A stretch of DNA of 64,000 nt from an uncultured Holophagaceae bacterium (GTDB taxonomy: Bacteria; Acidobacteriota; Holophagae; Holophagales; Holophagaceae). Below the pieces are notes generated by a model. That model was not told the DNA's origin and did not search any database. It saw only the letters and a list, made by a program, of their open reading frames with translations. Below are positions 55 to 18,056 of this stretch, piece after piece (within the stretch, counting starts at the first letter, position 1; every line of letters begins with the position of its first letter). The position numbers and the translations under genes are program-made. The stretch lies in contig CAIZZF010000008.1 in the NCBI GenBank assembly GCA_903937385.1, positions 1-64,000 of the forward strand. The letters run 5' to 3'.

Positions 55-99
55 AGCCAATACAAAAGAGGTCCCGGTGGGACCCCTTTTGTATTGGCT
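55..99. terminator. bidirectional hairpin terminator beside detached tRNA end
   Basis: Inverted repeat with 21-bp arms (55-75 and 79-99), one mismatch and a 3-base loop. The inner stem GGTCCC/GGGACC is followed on both strands by a short T tract (CCTTTTGT on plus, TCTTTTGT on minus), so it can stop transcription both ways. It lies next to the detached tRNA-Asn 3' fragment and was probably the original terminator of that tRNA before the island inserted. That history is inference. Confidence 0.6.
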
Positions 100-141
100 C
101 CGGAGGAGGGATTTGAACCCCCGACCTAGTGATTAACAGTC
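95..141 (-). repeat. left att repeat, tRNA-Asn 3' fragment
   Basis: 47 bases identical to 17981-18027. Read on the minus strand they are the tRNA-Asn 3' part from the anticodon loop through the T arm and acceptor to the encoded CCA. The 5' half is missing, so this is a non-functional remnant left by integration. The flanks differ immediately outside the repeat on both sides. Confidence 0.9.
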
Positions 142-3978: not shown

Positions 3979-5013
3979 TCACCCCCAAAGCTCGTCCTGG
4001 TGCTTCTTCTGCTCCTCAGTTGAGGTCTCCTGGTACCGGAGGGTGGTCATGGCGTTCTGATGGCCCAGCATGGTTTGGACTTCCTTGAGCGGAGCCTTGT
4101 TGCGTAGGTGCAGGGTGGCGAAGGTGGCCCGCAGCCGGTGCATGCCCAATGCTGGAACACCAATAGCCTTGGCTCCACGCTTCAGAGCCTTATTGAGCCA
4201 ACCACGGCTATGAACCTTCCCTTTTTCGCCGGGGAAGATCAGGCCCGATTCCGGCCGGTGGACCGGAAGAGGTTCCTTCCTGGCCAGGGCCTGGTGAGTC
4301 AGCATCCAGCCCAGCGCCGTGTGGAGGATTGGAGGCGCGGCAATGACCCTGTGCTTCTTCCCTTTGGTGCGGCTACGGACATCGTATGCCTCTGTAGTCA
4401 GCCACTCCCAACGGGCGTTGAGCATCTCGGCCTCGCGGACGCCAAGCGTCATGGTAAAGGTCGCGGCAGCAGGGATTTGGGCATTCAGTCTGGTCAAGGC
4501 GGTGAAGAAGATTTCACGCTGGTCCTTTTCCACGATTGGCCGAGCCTTCTCTTCCTCCCTGAGCATCTTGACGGAGTAGGGCATCTCTTTGATCAGCTTG
4601 TCCTTCATAGCCCAACGGCAGAACAACTTGAGGTAGCGCATGGCCAGATTCACAGTTGCCGGGCTACGACCCTTCAGATAGTCCGAACGCCAGTCCTCGA
4701 CCCGTGCCGTGGTCACATGCGGGAGCGGCAGCTTGAGCAGTGGCTTCAAGACCTCGCGGCTCTTCTCAGCGGCAATCCGATGTTCATCGGAGACGGAGCG
4801 ACCACGGGTATCAAGCCACTTATCAATCACCGCTCCAAGAGTCGGGGCCACACGAATGCCGTGCCCTCCCAGAATGCAATCCTGGCGAACAATCTCCAGA
4901 ACCCGCTTGGCAGTCTCTAGGTCCCGAGCCTTGGTCGTGCCTGAGTGAAGAGCGCCATTGATCTCGAATCGGTAGTGATAAACCTTCCCGCGTTTGAAGA
5001 GCCACTGAGTCAT
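3979..5013 (-). CDS. int: tyrosine recombinase, island integrase
   Basis: A 344-residue phage-type integrase that should catalyse site-specific recombination between the two 47-bp att repeats. The N-terminal half has a SAM-like core-binding region; the catalytic half shows the first Arg in LGVREAE, H292-R-L-R295, H318 in MLGHQN and the nucleophile Y327 in TTLRYQ. Start ATG follows AGAGG and overlaps the upstream gene stop as ATGA. It is the last gene of a four-gene overlapping operon. It faces the OmpA gene tail to tail. The link to tRNA-Asn is inferred from its being the only tyrosine recombinase here. Confidence 0.9.
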   Translation of the reverse strand: MTQWLFKRGKVYHYRFEINGALHSGTTKARDLETAKRVLEIVRQDCILGGHGIRVAPTLGAVIDKWLDTRGRSVSDEHRIAAEKSREVLKPLLKLPLPHVTTARVEDWRSDYLKGRSPATVNLAMRYLKLFCRWAMKDKLIKEMPYSVKMLREEEKARPIVEKDQREIFFTALTRLNAQIPAAATFTMTLGVREAEMLNARWEWLTTEAYDVRSRTKGKKHRVIAAPPILHTALGWMLTHQALARKEPLPVHRPESGLIFPGEKGKVHSRGWLNKALKRGAKAIGVPALGMHRLRATFATLHLRNKAPLKEVQTMLGHQNAMTTLRYQETSTEEQKKHQDELWG

Positions 5014-7734: not shown

Positions 7735-9810
7735 ATGCCACGCCCTTACAGCGTTCCCCTCAGCCGGTTTCTTGGCCTGAAGCAGAGGGAAGAGCGGAAA
7801 CAGGAGCGGGAGCCCTCCCAACCCTTCAACCCGGCACCAAAGCCTGAAGGTTCGTACAAACGCCCTTCGCGTCGTCCCAAGGATGGACCGAGCCCGATCC
7901 GGCTCAGGCAGAGTGAATTGGATGGCTTCACCGCCGACCTGATCTCATGGGTGGTTGGTGGTTGCCAGCAGTTGGCCTGGGAAGCTCTGATCAGCCGGAA
8001 GGATGAATCGGGTGCTCCTACCTGGTTGAAGGCTGAAGCTCTGGGCCTGGACTCGCTCAGCCATAAAATTCTGGGCCTCGCCTTGGCTCATTTGGTGCAC
8101 CTCCAAGGTGGCCTGGAGGATTCGCCATTCCAGCCAGGACAGGACCTTGATGGCGGCTGCCTGATTCAATTTTTGAACCTCCAGTCGCCAAATGGCCTAT
8201 GGGAATTGGCCACATGCCTGGCGACAGACGCTCCGCTCCGTGCCCGTGGCTTCCTGGAGGTGGACCGCGAGTGGAGCCCCCACCAGAAACGGAAAGGCTC
8301 GAATCCCATCAGCGTGGCCCGGTTCCTCAAAACCGAAATTTCGCTCAATTTGCAATGCCTTGGTGCTTTGCTTGGGCTCGACAAGATAGAAACTGAGGAT
8401 CTCGGTCCATCTCTGGAGGACTTGGCCCTCCCTCATGCCGTCCGTTCCCAGCTGGAACGCCTGCTGAAAAACCCTCCTCAACTCGATCGCCCCTTCCTGG
8501 TCTACCTCAAAGGGGCTGAGCAGAGTGGTCGTCACTCTCTCGCCCGATCCTTGGCAAAGCACTTCCACCTTCCTCTCAAGAGCATCCGCCCAAGCGATGG
8601 CCCTCAGCCAGGGGCCTTCGCCATTGCCGAAATACCCTCTCACTTCGATTCTCAGGATTTTCAGCTACTCAAAGAGCATCCCTCCTGGCTCTTCCTCAAG
8701 CCGATAGAGAGAGACATGTCATTCGATCCCGAATCCCGGGCCGATCTGGTGCTAGACCTCGGCCCCCTCTCCACGGAGGAACGAACCGATCTCTGGAGCC
8801 GGCTGTTGAAGGAGGCGGGTCCTGGCTTTACTGAAGTAGAGACCAAAGAGTTGGTAACCCTTGAAACCCCTCCGGGACGCATCGTAGAGGCAGTGAAACG
8901 GTTGTCACGCAACTCTGCCTGGGAGGAACTTAGTCCTCAGTCGGTTGTGGAGCATCTGAAGGTCGCTCTCGTACCCAATAAGCCCAAGGCTTCCGAGACC
9001 ACCTACGCCGAGAAGCTGAAACCCATCCGTTGCCTGGATGAGCTATGCCTATCGCCTGAGGCCATGACCCGCTACAAGCGGATCATCCAAACCATCCGTG
9101 GTCGGAAAGAAATGCTAACCAATTGGAAGCTCGATCCAGGTCTGGTGGGCCGCGCACAGGGCGTCATGCTCTTCCATGGTCCCAGCGGCACTGGAAAAAC
9201 GATGGCTGCCGAGGTCCTGGCCCATGAGTTGGAATTGCCTCTGCTGCGTATGGAGGCCGCTGAGATCGAATCCCCTTATGTCGGCGAATCAGAATCTCGC
9301 CTGCAACAGTTCTTCGCCAGCGTGAAGGGAAAACCTGCCGTCCTGCTCCTCGACGAGGTCGATACGGTTCTCATGAATCGCAGCACCACGACAGGTAGCA
9401 CCAAGCGGTATCAGGACAACTTCGTGAATACCTTCCTTCGGGAACTCGATCGTTTCGAAGGCATCCTGGTCCTCACCTCGAACCACCCTGGTTCATTGGA
9501 CCCCGCCGTGGAGCGTCGGATTCAGTTCCGGTTGGTTTTCGAGTCTCCTTCAGCCGAGGTCCGGGCTCAGATATGGAAGACCCTCCTGGGAGACGCACCC
9601 ATTCCAGGTCGTGAATCCCTGGATTTCAGCACAGTGGCTGCTCTCTATGACCTCAGCGGTGGTCGAATCCGCAATGCCTTTATGGACGCCTGCCAACGAG
9701 CTGCCGAGACCGGTGCCATCAGCCAGGAAATTCTTATCGACGCCTGTGAGGAGGAGCAACGGTCATCCATCACCAAGACCTTACGCACCATCAAGGGTTT
9801 CGGGGCCTAA
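7735..9810 (+). CDS. two-module AAA+ ATPase
   Basis: A 691-residue ATPase. The C-terminal module is a classic AAA domain: Walker A GPSGTGKT at about residues 482-489, Walker B VLLLDEVD near 536-543, sensor-1 LTSNHPGSLDPA and arginines at VERRIQFR. The N-terminal module keeps only a degenerate P-loop (KGAEQSGRHSLA near 260) and is probably non-hydrolysing. The first 65 residues are Pro/Arg-rich and likely disordered. The layout recalls CDC48/Vps4-like remodelling ATPases, but no protease or known adaptor is alongside. GGAG precedes the ATG. First gene of a same-strand set of unknowns ending in a metallophosphoesterase. Confidence 0.85.
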   Translation: MPRPYSVPLSRFLGLKQREERKQEREPSQPFNPAPKPEGSYKRPSRRPKDGPSPIRLRQSELDGFTADLISWVVGGCQQLAWEALISRKDESGAPTWLKAEALGLDSLSHKILGLALAHLVHLQGGLEDSPFQPGQDLDGGCLIQFLNLQSPNGLWELATCLATDAPLRARGFLEVDREWSPHQKRKGSNPISVARFLKTEISLNLQCLGALLGLDKIETEDLGPSLEDLALPHAVRSQLERLLKNPPQLDRPFLVYLKGAEQSGRHSLARSLAKHFHLPLKSIRPSDGPQPGAFAIAEIPSHFDSQDFQLLKEHPSWLFLKPIERDMSFDPESRADLVLDLGPLSTEERTDLWSRLLKEAGPGFTEVETKELVTLETPPGRIVEAVKRLSRNSAWEELSPQSVVEHLKVALVPNKPKASETTYAEKLKPIRCLDELCLSPEAMTRYKRIIQTIRGRKEMLTNWKLDPGLVGRAQGVMLFHGPSGTGKTMAAEVLAHELELPLLRMEAAEIESPYVGESESRLQQFFASVKGKPAVLLLDEVDTVLMNRSTTTGSTKRYQDNFVNTFLRELDRFEGILVLTSNHPGSLDPAVERRIQFRLVFESPSAEVRAQIWKTLLGDAPIPGRESLDFSTVAALYDLSGGRIRNAFMDACQRAAETGAISQEILIDACEEEQRSSITKTLRTIKGFGA

Positions 9811-9866
9811 GTCATTGATCACACCACTCAAATCGCCGTATCCCCAGCTCGTACACCAGGAGAACC

Positions 9867-10628
9867 ATGCTTCCTATTCTCAAACACCTCACTCGGACCA
9901 CACCCACCTGGCTCAAGGACATCAGCCCATCTGATATTCAGCAGGGTCCCGGTTCGTGGATGAATTACCTCGTAGAAGACGCATTGGTCTATTTCGGTGC
10001 GGGTCTCGATTTTTCACCCGTGAGGCAATGCAACGGAGCCGTAAGTTCCTTTATATTATTTGATTACGGGACAATCCAAACCGATGTCGTTGCAGAGCTG
10101 AATCGGCAGATGAAGACCGGTGTGGTATTCAAGGCTCACCGGCTCATTGCCCTAGCAGCATTCGATCCTCTCCCTCTGGTGATTGACGCTGATCCTGATT
10201 TCATCTATCGAGGCCAGCTTTTCCATCAGACGCAACCTCCCTTCGGAATCTGGGCGGTATACGAGAGCAAAGCAGACCCAACCGAACGATTCAGCTTCAT
10301 GTACATGGGTGTTGAAGCGATACAGGCCCTCGCCGCATTGTTTCCAAACTCTGCTCCCAAGGCACTTGTGGTTCAAGAACATGGTTTTGGAGGATCATGC
10401 TGGCAGAATTTTAGTGACCAAATTCTGAGGCTCTCAAAGTGGTGGGCCACCCTTCCAGAGATCCTAATCCTTGGCAAACACCACAGCCTTCAAGCCTGGA
10501 GTAGAAATGCTCAACACCTCGGCTCAGATAAAGCGATTGAAAGCATGCATGGAAATCAGCGTGAGTTTTTTTGGATGAACCAAGCCGGACGCGATAGTTC
10601 ACGGAAACCCGATGACCCAAGATCGTGA
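9867..10628 (+). CDS. conserved-looking hypothetical protein
   Basis: A 253-residue soluble protein, 56 bp after the AAA+ gene, with AGGAG four bases before the ATG. It reads like a compact globular domain: LVYFGAGLDFSPVR, FILFDYG, PFGIWAVYES, ERFSFMYMGVEAIQAL and EHGFGGSCWQNF. I do not recognise a named family. No signal peptide or membrane segment. Close spacing suggests it acts with the ATPase, perhaps as partner or substrate adaptor; that is inference. Confidence 0.65.
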   Translation: MLPILKHLTRTTPTWLKDISPSDIQQGPGSWMNYLVEDALVYFGAGLDFSPVRQCNGAVSSFILFDYGTIQTDVVAELNRQMKTGVVFKAHRLIALAAFDPLPLVIDADPDFIYRGQLFHQTQPPFGIWAVYESKADPTERFSFMYMGVEAIQALAALFPNSAPKALVVQEHGFGGSCWQNFSDQILRLSKWWATLPEILILGKHHSLQAWSRNAQHLGSDKAIESMHGNQREFFWMNQAGRDSSRKPDDPRS

Positions 10629-10981
10629 ATACACCCAGCACAGAGATGGAATGGACATCAAACGCCAGAACCTGTTTCTAGGCATTCTTACTTCCTTGAG
10701 AATCACATGAGTTTTGATAAACCCTACATTAGAGGCAAAGAACATCGGAAACCCTACAGGGGTGCAAAAATGTCTTTCGCCTCTTGCCGGAATCATGGGT
10801 CTTGTAGGTGCTGCGTTCGTGGTCGTCAGCATGCTACAGAGCGTAGGAAGCCGATACAGGAGGTACATGAACAATGCATGAAAGATCCTGATGCAGTCAT
10901 GAAGGAACGGAGTGTATCTGCACTACAGGCGTAGAGAATCAGAGAACGACGACAACTATCCACACTTAGAATTGGACCATT
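10629..10981. other. 353-bp gap with no convincing gene
   Basis: Between two same-strand unknown genes. It holds only short competing frames in the plus direction (one Cys/Arg-rich frame at 10707-10934 and a short hydrophobic frame noted separately). No repeat or terminator is obvious. It may be a degraded gene. Confidence 0.4.
10762..10881 (+). CDS. possible small membrane peptide
   Basis: A 39-codon frame from GTG 10762 encoding one hydrophobic span (LAGIMGLVGAAFVVVSML) followed by a basic tail (SRYRRYMNN), which is the layout of a small inner-membrane peptide. It can also begin at TTG 10714. No good ribosome site is seen, so evidence rests on the protein pattern alone. Confidence 0.25.
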   Translation: MQKCLSPLAGIMGLVGAAFVVVSMLQSVGSRYRRYMNNA

Positions 10982-11464
10982 GTGCGTGAAGGCTGTTGGA
11001 TTCGCTCCTCGGGGGAATGGACCTGGATCAACGAACATGCCTCATGGGTTCAGAAACCAGAGAACGCGAGGTTGCTGGGACTTCCGGAAGAGATTCAGGC
11101 CCAGCTTTTTGACCTCCGGTGGGACTTCAATGGAGTCGGGAGAGAGGCCATTCTCCGCGTAGCCATGGGTGCTGGGTTAATCCGAATGAGAGGCCATGGA
11201 GCAAATGTAACTTTTGAATTCACCATTCCAATGGCGATTGCGATTCAATCAGTCAGACCCTTCATGGACCAGAATTTCGGCCCGATGACCTGGGTCCAGT
11301 TCAACGACCTGGAGAAGGGTCAGTCCTTCGGATGCTGCTACAAGGATCTGAGCGAAGCCATGGACAAGGGGACTCTCTCAGACCTGTTGGCTGAGGCCAG
11401 TGATTCGGCAGTGGAGGGTCCGTCCACTCATCCTGGAACGCCCAGGGAGGAAGGGAAATTTTGA
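10982..11464 (+). CDS. unknown protein coupled to phosphoesterase
   Basis: A 160-residue soluble protein starting at GTG 10982 (reading MREGCWIRSSGEW). Its TGA overlaps the TTG of the next gene, so the two are translationally coupled. Features: an aromatic N-terminus, then LRWDFNGVGREAILRVAMGAGLIRMRGHG, followed by beta-rich FEFTIPMAIAI and a charged tail. I do not recognise the family. Coupling suggests it regulates or partners the metallophosphoesterase. Confidence 0.6.
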   Translation: MREGCWIRSSGEWTWINEHASWVQKPENARLLGLPEEIQAQLFDLRWDFNGVGREAILRVAMGAGLIRMRGHGANVTFEFTIPMAIAIQSVRPFMDQNFGPMTWVQFNDLEKGQSFGCCYKDLSEAMDKGTLSDLLAEASDSAVEGPSTHPGTPREEGKF

Positions 11465-12153
11465 GGATCCTGGCCTTCTCTGACCTGCATGGGAGTGGAT
11501 TTTTGGCGGCTTCCGCTCTGATTGATAGGCATCAGCCCAACTGGGTCATTTGCGTCGGCGATTTACTCCCTGATTTCACTCAGCGCCCAGCAAAATTCCG
11601 CCTCTTGGCCCAACAGAAATTTTGGCGTGACCATCGACACCTATTCGTCCGGCCTGAGTCCGTAACCACCATGATCGTGGGGAACCATGAGCTGCCTGGG
11701 TTCAAGTTTCCAGGCATGGACCTCCTCCCGGCAGGTTTCGAGGACCGTGTTGTGAGGCTTGAAGGAGTTCCTGGCGACTCTGGACCATACAGTTTCGCCA
11801 ACGGTCTGCCTGAGGAAGAACTCGAAGAGGAACTTCAGGACCAACTCACCCTTGTTTCGAATCCCCTAATCTACCTGAGCCATGCACCACCCTACGGGAG
11901 CTGTGACAAGTCACATCGAGGGGATCACATTGGCCATCGCCCACTCTTTCGGCATCTCCAAGATCGTGACTGGCCAAGGGTATTGGTTCTATGCGGCCAT
12001 GTGCACAACGGCTTTGGAGTCGAGGAAGCTGGAGCCACCACCATTCTGAATGTTGCCACCGGGTACGCAATCCTCGAATGGGAGAAGGACTTTACCCGTG
12101 TCCTAGAGATTGGACGCTTGGTGGCGGGGGGGAGTTTCTGGGACTCCCCCTAG
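11461..12153 (+). CDS. calcineurin-like metallophosphoesterase
   Basis: A 230-residue phosphoesterase of the binuclear-metal superfamily. All motifs are visible: D8-L-H10, GD34, GNHE with N75/H76, H141 in SHAPP and GHVH with H180 and H182. Likely substrates are phosphodiesters such as nucleotides or nucleic acids; specificity cannot be read. It starts at TTG 11461, overlapping the stop of the previous unknown gene. No signal peptide, so cytoplasmic. Last gene of the set begun by the AAA+ ATPase; a GGGGGAGT/ACTCCCCC hairpin lies at its very end (12128-12150). Confidence 0.85.
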   Translation: MRILAFSDLHGSGFLAASALIDRHQPNWVICVGDLLPDFTQRPAKFRLLAQQKFWRDHRHLFVRPESVTTMIVGNHELPGFKFPGMDLLPAGFEDRVVRLEGVPGDSGPYSFANGLPEEELEEELQDQLTLVSNPLIYLSHAPPYGSCDKSHRGDHIGHRPLFRHLQDRDWPRVLVLCGHVHNGFGVEEAGATTILNVATGYAILEWEKDFTRVLEIGRLVAGGSFWDSP

Positions 12154-15692: not shown

Positions 15693-16002
15693 TCATGTCT
15701 CCTACTGCAATATTTCTTAGGCTTGCTCAACCAACCCTATTGACTAAATAATTGTTAACTTTTGTTAAGGTGACCACCGTCACTGCTTTCAAGCCTCCGG
15801 TGTTGTCCTTCGTAGCTACAACCAGAGGTGGACCCTCCAAATCGCCTTGCCCTCCTTGGCTAGTAGAGTTCCAAAACCCCCTCCTCCGACCAGTGTTTTC
15901 ATTTCAAAAATTTTCTATGGGTTTTTAAATATTACCACCCAGTTATACAGATCACCAAATAGGCGGTCTGGTGACAATTCCCGATGCCTCGGATGGCTGG
16001 AG
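15693..16002. other. 310-bp intergenic stretch
   Basis: Upstream of the Sel1 gene and downstream of the recombinase. It shows AT-rich patches (TTGTTAACTTTTGTTAAGG near 15745) but no supported gene, repeat or terminator. Confidence 0.5.
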
Positions 16003-16560
16003 CTAAGTTCTTGCTGTCGCTGGAACCCAACGATACAGCGTAGGAATTGACACACCCAGATTCTTGGCCACCTCTTTTGGAAGAGCCCCGGAGGAGAGAA
16101 GCTGTTTGGCTGCTTCGATCTTTCCAGCGTCCATCTTCCGCTTTCGACCACCGATCTTCCCGAGGCGGCGAGCGGCCTGAAGGCCAGCCTGGGTGCGCTC
16201 AACCACAAGCTCGCGTTCCATTTGGGCTAGGCTAGCCATCACATGGAAGAAGAACCGTCCAGCCGGTGTTGAGGTGTCGATCTGATCTGTGAGGCTGGCG
16301 AAGTGGATTTCCTCCTTTGCCAGGTCCGTCACGAAATCGACCAGGCCCTTCACAGACCGACCAAGCCGGTCCAGCTTCCAGACCACAAGGGTGTCTCCCG
16401 CCCTCAGGTGCGACTTCGCCTCTTGGAGCCCAGGCCGATCTGAACGAGCACCGGACATTCGATCGGTGAAGATCCGCTCACAACCGGCTAGCTCAAGGGC
16501 TTGAGTCTGAAGGTCCAGGGATTGGAGGTCAGTTGAAACACGCGCATAACCAAGTCGCAG
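16003..16560 (-). CDS. serine recombinase (resolvase/invertase), CTG start
   Basis: A 185-residue serine recombinase. The frame upstream of the first ATG (16458) is open and encodes the complete N-terminus LGYARVSTDLQSLDLQ with the catalytic Ser at residue 9, so the true start is CTG 16560, with AAGGAG five bases before it. No ATG, GTG or TTG is available in frame before the upstream TAG. The rest is typical: WKLDRLGRSVKGL, AGRFFFHVMASLAQMERE, and a C-terminal Hin-like HTH ending in SIPTLYRW. Sits beside an inverted repeat that overlaps its promoter. Confidence 0.85.
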   Translation of the reverse strand: MRLGYARVSTDLQSLDLQTQALELAGCERIFTDRMSGARSDRPGLQEAKSHLRAGDTLVVWKLDRLGRSVKGLVDFVTDLAKEEIHFASLTDQIDTSTPAGRFFFHVMASLAQMERELVVERTQAGLQAARRLGKIGGRKRKMDAGKIEAAKQLLSSGALPKEVAKNLGVSIPTLYRWVPATART

Positions 16561-16566
16561 ATCGGC

Positions 16567-16607
16567 TCCTTCTCGATACTCATTATTATACTAGGAATCG
16601 AGAAGGA
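16567..16607 (-). promoter_or_regulatory. inverted repeat over recombinase promoter
   Basis: Perfect 11-bp inverted repeat (16567-16577 with 16597-16607, arms TCCTTCTCGAT) round a 19-bp spacer that contains TATAAT on the minus strand. The inner arm carries the AAGGAG ribosome site of the serine recombinase. It could be the operator and crossover site of that enzyme, allowing autoregulation. Confidence 0.5.
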
Positions 16608-16766
16608 TCATTCCAGAATAGTTTTCGAGAACCCAAAGGGCCTGATTTTGCGTGAAGGCAATCCGATGGACGGTGCCTTCTTGATAACCACCGTTACCAA
16701 GAGGGCCACTATCCAAAGTTTTTTGAGCCTCGGGAGCAGATCCAAGGCCATTGCCAATCGACCGGA

Positions 16767-17940: not shown

Positions 17941-17975
17941 AAAAAAGCCGCGAAACCCAGTGGTTACGCGGCTTT
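17941..17975 (-). terminator. tRNA-Asn terminator supplied by island
   Basis: Hairpin of 9 bp (AAAGCCGCG with CGCGGCTTT, 14-base loop) ending in TTTTTT on the minus strand, six bases past the CCA of tRNA-Asn. It replaces the original terminator now stranded at 55-99. Confidence 0.8.
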
Positions 17976-17980
17976 CGTTC

Positions 17981-18027
17981 TGGCTCCGGAGGAGGGATTT
18001 GAACCCCCGACCTAGTGATTAACAGTC
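17981..18027 (-). repeat. right att repeat inside tRNA-Asn
   Basis: Perfect copy of 95-141. It spans from the anticodon loop to the CCA end, a classical target for tyrosine integrases that insert in tRNA genes. Confidence 0.9.
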
Positions 18028-18056
18028 ACCCGCTCTGACCCCTGAGCTACTCCGGA
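17981..18056 (-). tRNA. tRNA-Asn (anticodon GTT)
   Basis: 76 nt including encoded CCA. Acceptor TCCGGAG pairs with CTCCGGA with discriminator G; anticodon stem GGTGA/TCACT encloses CTGTTAA; T arm GGGGG-TTCAAAT-CCCTC. Its last 47 nt are the right att repeat, so the 3' part came with the island while the gene stays intact. Confidence 0.97.

Follow-up and report, generated by a model that had tools for sequence, protein, structure and literature searches.

A putative Tn3-type resolution module with a rare CTG start codon in a tRNA-Asn island of a Holophagaceae bacterium

Where does translation begin in a serine recombinase gene whose catalytic N-terminus lies ahead of its first ATG, and what does a perfect palindrome across its promoter and ribosome site do? 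Both questions are raised by a gene on the minus strand of a 64,000-nt stretch of an uncultured Holophagaceae genome (the window, to which all positions refer), for which the following features were assigned.

16003..16560, minus strand: serine resolvase of the TnpR type, 185 codons (start CTG 16560-16558, stop 16005-16003)
16558..16560, minus strand: CTG start codon, sole start candidate from the in-frame stop to the conserved N-terminus
16566..16571, minus strand: Shine-Dalgarno AAGGAG, 5 nt before the CTG, with motif and spacing alike in G004:C11 and G004:C23

A profile search of the protein returned PF00239 (E 1.9e-43) and HTH_7 (E 1.2e-5), both over cut-offs, as for a small serine recombinase with a C-terminal helix-turn-helix (HTH); the 185-aa chain ends just past the HTH and its conserved N-terminus reads LRLGYARVSTD. 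The serine of the RVST motif is catalytic in the serine recombinase family. The first-pass annotation had placed the catalytic N-terminus ahead of the first ATG and had called the CTG, with AAGGAG ahead of it, the only possible in-frame start, and our reading of the sequence agrees on both points. The in-frame codons leading to the start are TAG TAT AAT AAT GAG TAT CGA GAA GGA GCC GAT CTG, and from the in-frame stop (16593-16591) to the conserved N-terminus the frame includes a single NTG or ATN codon, the CTG at 16560-16558; 11 open codons follow the TAG, CTG included, and ATG, GTG and TTG are absent there. Farther on, the first in-frame ATG is codon 35 (16458), preceded by a second CTG (codon 15) and an ATC (codon 30), with no ATG, GTG or TTG in frame between CTG 16560 and codon 35; initiation at codon 15 or later would give a protein without the RVST serine motif. 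An ORF listing based on ATG, GTG and TTG starts begins the window gene at ATG 16458 and the related G004:C11 gene at a TTG, codon 15, and thus truncates both CTG genes past the serine motif.

Comparison with relatives bears on whether the CTG is genuine. A second genome of the genus, G004, has CTG at the aligned codon as well, in its 96%-identical gene at C11:252779 (G004:C11), and exactly this position is ATG in G004:C23 (81% identical) and in G020 (71% identical). A sequencing error, raised earlier as an objection, is unlikely because the CTG is found in G004:C11 despite changes in three of the five bases between AAGGAG and the start (CCGAT in the window, CAAAC in G004:C11), and because the 81% copy has ATG. 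Between the window gene and G004:C11, dN is 0.043 and dS 0.386 over codons 2-34, without any stop codon, against dN 0.021 and dS 0.469 over codons 35-183; dS towards G004:C23 and G020 is partly saturated or undefined. The low dN relative to dS indicates, at the sequence level, that codons 2-34 are under purifying selection, as expected if the N-terminus is translated. These values also speak against gene decay, with the ATG lost and translation ended, or an error in sequencing; the ATG of the nearest outgroup genes would suit such a reading, but with CTG in two genomes we consider it very improbable. Still less credible is translation from the out-of-frame ATG 16583-16581 with a -1 frameshift into the recombinase frame. 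This ATG is also present in G004:C11, G004:C23 and G020, but it lies 1 nt after a TATAAT, upstream of the expected transcript start and inside the recombination subsite III described below, no ribosome site is seen ahead of it, and in the 81% copy a normal ATG, at identical spacing, stands in place of the CTG. Initiation at CTG 16560-16558 is therefore a well-supported prediction.

The aligned codon was then counted more widely, with L116-L118 (from a 396-genome search) and L006, L007 and L010 left aside. Among 80 relatives in the genome_contigs set it is ATG in 73, GTG in three, CTG in two, TTG in one and CTC in one, the last two having an in-frame ATG upstream; one of the two CTG relatives, L032, is the G004 contig again, and the other, L038 (Bryobacterales), lacks a clear ribosome site and could contain a frame error. 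Among 80 viral_contigs relatives there are 58 ATG, 19 GTG, one TTG, two GCA (with an ATG immediately ahead) and no CTG. In a tree of 53 rows, made up of 48 of the 80 loci (all but L032 and L081-L111) and five others, the CTG genes of the window and G004:C11 are sisters (100/98) adjoining ATG genes, with L038 apart. The accessible part of PMC11497404 puts CUG at 0.024% of bacterial start codons and its output at 0.86% of that of AUG; from the latter value the CTG start should lower the resolvase dose and keep the enzyme scarce in the host of the window, although expression from CUG might be too low to matter. As to a permissive host with a variant initiator tRNA, this candidate was rejected on finding one initiator-type tRNA in the genome, with GGG/CCC in the anticodon stem, by a pattern search that itself includes this stem and would miss a variant gene. 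No CTG-started recombinase turned up in the literature searched, the phrase 'ctg start codon' being absent among the matches listed. CTG starts in bacteria as such are already discussed in print, 'ctg start' appearing in the visible text of E. coli overlapping-gene papers (PMC7103648, PMC5960689). What is unusual here is a rare CTG start common to two genomes, in a module otherwise of known kind.

The palindrome that had been described earlier, an 11-bp perfect inverted repeat enclosing TATAAT and overlapping the ribosome site, can be read directly at 16567-16607: the arms are 16567-16577 and 16597-16607 with 19 nt between them, TATAAT lies at 16590-16585 and the right arm overlaps AAGGA. The exact pattern did not appear in 100 dinucleotide shuffles; the window holds 19 perfect inverted repeats of at least 11 bp (loop 3-40) at about eight places, and four shuffles of the window gave 5, 3, 1 and 2. 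Such repeats are not very rare by themselves, so the meaning of this one rests on conservation. The inner 8 bp, TTCTCGAT/ATCGAGAA, are preserved in G004:C11 and G004:C23 and the outer TCC/GGA are not. Across 47 genomes of the genus, the core TTCTCGAT-N(17-21)-ATCGAGAA has three copies, in two of the genomes, and each copy lies ahead of a recombinase gene of this type. Aligning the upstream regions places TTCTCGAAAACTATTCTGGA next to the palindrome and a 26-bp dyad farther upstream. The following features were assigned in this region.

16570..16604, minus strand: res subsite III, 35 bp, core of the palindrome (from conservation and half-site scoring)
16585..16590, minus strand: TATAAT, probable -10 box inside subsite III (from sequence; TANNNT recurs in relatives)
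16607..16631, minus strand: res subsite II, half-sites TTCTCGAAAACT and TTCTGGAATGAT, 13 nt apart
16678..16703, minus strand: res subsite I, 26-bp crossover site, CTCTTGGTAACG-GT-GGTTATCAAGAA

The half-sites of subsite II read better as direct repeats (mean match 8.6 of 12) than as inverted ones (7.2). We monitored half-site matches on both strands at offsets of -120 to +59 around a subsite II anchor, in the 30 of 85 rows with an anchor match within 260 nt and 80 nt to its left. The highest means fall at 0 (the anchor), -2 reverse (overlapping the anchor), +13, -72 and -58 reverse, followed by +51 reverse, -57 reverse and +27, peaks that would correspond to two half-sites each for subsites I, II and III at fixed distances over the 30 rows. 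A composite res score of at least 41 was reached by 44 of 79 loci and by pEMB1 (45 of 80 rows), and the best of five shuffles per row gave at most 33. The scoring, which took in 2500 nt of upstream DNA where available, fixed the spacing at 71-73 nt and the length of site III at 35-36 and is thus no measurement of either. The window module and G004:C11 each score 52; site I of G004:C11 has a poor left half (9 of 12 on a lenient score) whose outer end is unusual. Within the 44 loci, site I is poor (<17 of 24) in three (L062, L074, L096) and site III reaches at most 10 of 15 in nine (L036, L042, L044, L045, L070, L073, L076, L077, L108); ATG stands at the aligned start codon in 38, and subsite II lies at most 176 nt from the start codon in 25 and 430-2135 nt away in 19. 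Among the 35 rows under the threshold, 25 share other upstream DNA, three have less than 260 nt upstream and six loci, with scores of 36-40, exceed the control maximum. Separately, 25 of the 31 loci L081-L111, in different and mostly proteobacterial records, have the same 150 nt ahead of a near-identical resolvase gene, a pattern pointing to one widely spread mobile element.

Judged on sequence only, the window thus has three subsites at the spacing of its relatives, with III by the gene and I distal. In Tn3-type res sites, as the available portion of PMC7157771 has it, site III adjoins the resolvase gene and promoters lie inside res. The upstream region reads as a three-part site of this type, and the palindrome is best explained as its subsite III. 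The earlier view of the palindrome as a stand-alone operator does not fare well: an autorepressed recombinase with this repeat as its only operator, lacking a res site or a resolution function, would account for the covered -10 box and the contact with the ribosome site, but subsites I and II sit at family-wide distances and the palindrome corresponds to subsite III in relatives near Tn3 transposases, which leaves this reading very unlikely. Autoregulation as such fits, in so far as the palindrome resembles a resolvase-binding subsite over the promoter, from which bound resolvase should repress its own gene; the repression itself stays at the level of prediction. That it is tight, as proposed earlier, or that rare initiation is linked to the palindrome is conjecture; most of the 44 loci with this kind of res have ATG.

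The promoter was inspected in the same set of sites. A TANNNT hexamer is found in 35 of 50 sites at offset 11-14 within subsite III, and a second peak at offset -2 (25 of 50) coincides with TATTCT, a conserved part of the half-site. In the promoter scan nothing with a sigma-70 consensus passed, and no good -35 was seen; by the usual distance from the -10 box, the transcript would start near 16578. Because this start lies beyond the left palindrome arm, RNA begun there would contain no such hairpin, and the palindrome would act at the DNA level. Read-in from upstream would give a transcript with both arms (-16.3 kcal/mol, z -2.10; equalled by 8 of 200 shuffles), and its hairpin would cover the ribosome site. 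In the five nearest copies and 14 hand-picked loci of the 44, compared with 60 shuffled-upstream controls each, a hairpin as a family feature was rejected, since for 11 of the 19 between 17 and all 60 controls were equally closed. Controls as closed as the real sequence numbered 2 for the window gene and L065, 5 for G020 and L071, 6 for G004:C23, 8 for L035, 10 for L083 and 11 for G004:C11, and hairpin regulation in the closest copies is a side possibility.

Affinity to invertases is the next point to weigh, as the best solved relative of the protein is DNA invertase 4m6f (E 3.4e-60), which we take to be Gin, followed by gamma-delta resolvase (E 1.7e-32). Gin of phage Mu belongs to the same family, with 57.5% identity over the match, and inverts DNA between two inverted sites with an enhancer; the window, in contrast, has one site I with subsites II and III. 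Site I resembles a 26-bp invertase crossover site (hix consensus). An enzyme of the Hin/Gin kind, flipping an adjacent segment between inverted copies of site I, is nevertheless very improbable: subsites II and III, as accessory sites, are of the resolvase kind, a scan of the window with 19- and 26-base site I patterns gave no second match at up to 4 mismatches, and a 20-base pattern recurs in the genome, at up to 3 mismatches, only at a paralog, although these limits would miss a more diverged partner. At these limits no segment between inverted crossover sites was found. The stronger match to the invertase than to gamma-delta resolvase also agrees with an ISXc5-type catalytic domain, ISXc5 resolvase being reportedly the subject of a 1998 paper by Liu et al. 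ISXc5-type enzymes are about 300 aa long, with a C-terminal extension of about 110 aa that the 185-aa window protein, ending after its HTH, does not have.

The reading as a resolution module is strengthened by known systems. The pEMB1 (KJ631729) Tn3-like element encodes a resolvase 69.6% identical to that of the window over the match and has the same subsites at 72-nt spacing. Unlike the window module it has a tnpA (annotated tnpA and tnpR, with res between), its tnpR has ATG where the window gene has CTG, and its res and the tnpR start are 212 nt apart, separated by other DNA. In 37 of the 80 loci, 24 of them among the 44, the fetched stretch contains a match to tnpA of pEMB1. No Tn3 transposase (PF01526) was found by profile search in the genomes G000 (that of the window), G004 and G020, the control giving matches in 2 of 14; with none in its own genome, the module looks transposase-free and is not a Tn3-family transposon by this measure. 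Salmonella genomic island 1 (SGI1, res gene S027), in the accessible text of PMC12217951, likewise combines a resolvase with a three-subsite res on an island, with site III adjoining the gene and a presumed promoter inside res. Its Tn3/gamma-delta-like res has 51 bp between the centres of sites I and II, as against about 71 bp in the window, a distance within the 4-7 helical turns that this source allows, and its primary site is trmE instead of tRNA-Asn. The SGI1 system is described there as removing multimers by acting on tandem island copies; by analogy, the window module would do the same.

The island itself is outlined by three features.

17981..18056, minus strand: tRNA-Asn (GTT), probable island integration site (tRNA search; its end is repeated at 86-141)
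86..141, plus strand: copy of the tRNA-Asn end (17972-18027), probable far att site (94.6% over 56 nt)
3979..5013, minus strand: tyrosine integrase of the island (PF00589, E 1.9e-17; homologous stretch in the G004:C11 region)

The resolvase gene sits between the tRNA and the copy of its end, and at the same tRNA G004 contains a related region whose shared blocks are collinear with those of the window. Another contig of the window genome, C17, begins with the inverted sequence of window bases 1-141, identical throughout and with the att repeat inside; the repeated att site may be where the two contigs join. In the stretch 7735-12153, an AAA ATPase similar to IetA, a defence protein (PADLOC, E 5.8e-32), comes before two proteins with no Pfam hit, and after these comes a metallophosphoesterase (PDC-S10, E 5.1e-13). 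The stretch has homologous counterparts in the G004 region (64-69% DNA identity) and may be a defence cassette. The recombinase homology block to G004:C11 covers 15997-16696 and ends 5 bp past the central GT of site I; beyond, towards the tRNA, the two DNAs differ (about 1.1 kb here, 8 kb in G004). It looks as if cargo may have been exchanged there by recombination between the res sites of islands, and the available part of PMC7157771 describes a similar breakpoint at res site I between Tn3 transposons. Judged by eye, a 252-aa ORF of G004 with a TTG start (L004 2378-3136) would encode a further serine recombinase, unlike the first; it begins some 320 nt downstream of the G004 CTG gene.

Site I varies at its centre, GT being found in 5 of 6 Holophagaceae copies (two own, two of G004, G020 and L033) and in 9 of 49 sites overall. 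The only close site I match found elsewhere in the genome is upstream of the paralog (G000:C1, L028), whose protein is 64% identical to that of the window. This paralog site (L028 3358-3377) equals G004:C11 site I at 23 of 26 positions, a level reached by 3 of 743 pairs counted as under 72% protein identity, the paralog pair included, in a count where the paralog identity was miscounted (ungapped, near 10%).

Altogether, we consider it very likely that the locus is a Tn3-type resolution module, a serine resolvase with its res site and no transposase, within a tRNA-Asn island. Resolvase dimers would occupy the half-sites in all three subsites, two res copies in direct repeat would pair and be cut at the central GT of site I, and tandem or dimeric island copies would be resolved down to one. 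Resolvase on subsite III would cover the -10 box and shut off its own gene, translation from CTG would keep the enzyme scarce, and res sites of different islands could recombine and swap cargo beyond site I. That the CUG start is a selected dose limiter atop autoregulation, combined with cargo swaps in trans via a shared GT-centred site I, is a tentative and rather doubtful extension; its swap part draws on the 23 of 26 agreement of site I despite protein identities to the window of 64% for the paralog and 96% for G004:C11. If the dose-limiter reading is true, resolvase would be so scarce that only rare tandem islands are acted on. The locus offers a natural CTG case in two genomes, with synonymous divergence near 0.4 and an ATG sister copy as control, and would permit a direct test of whether rare starts limit recombinase dose.
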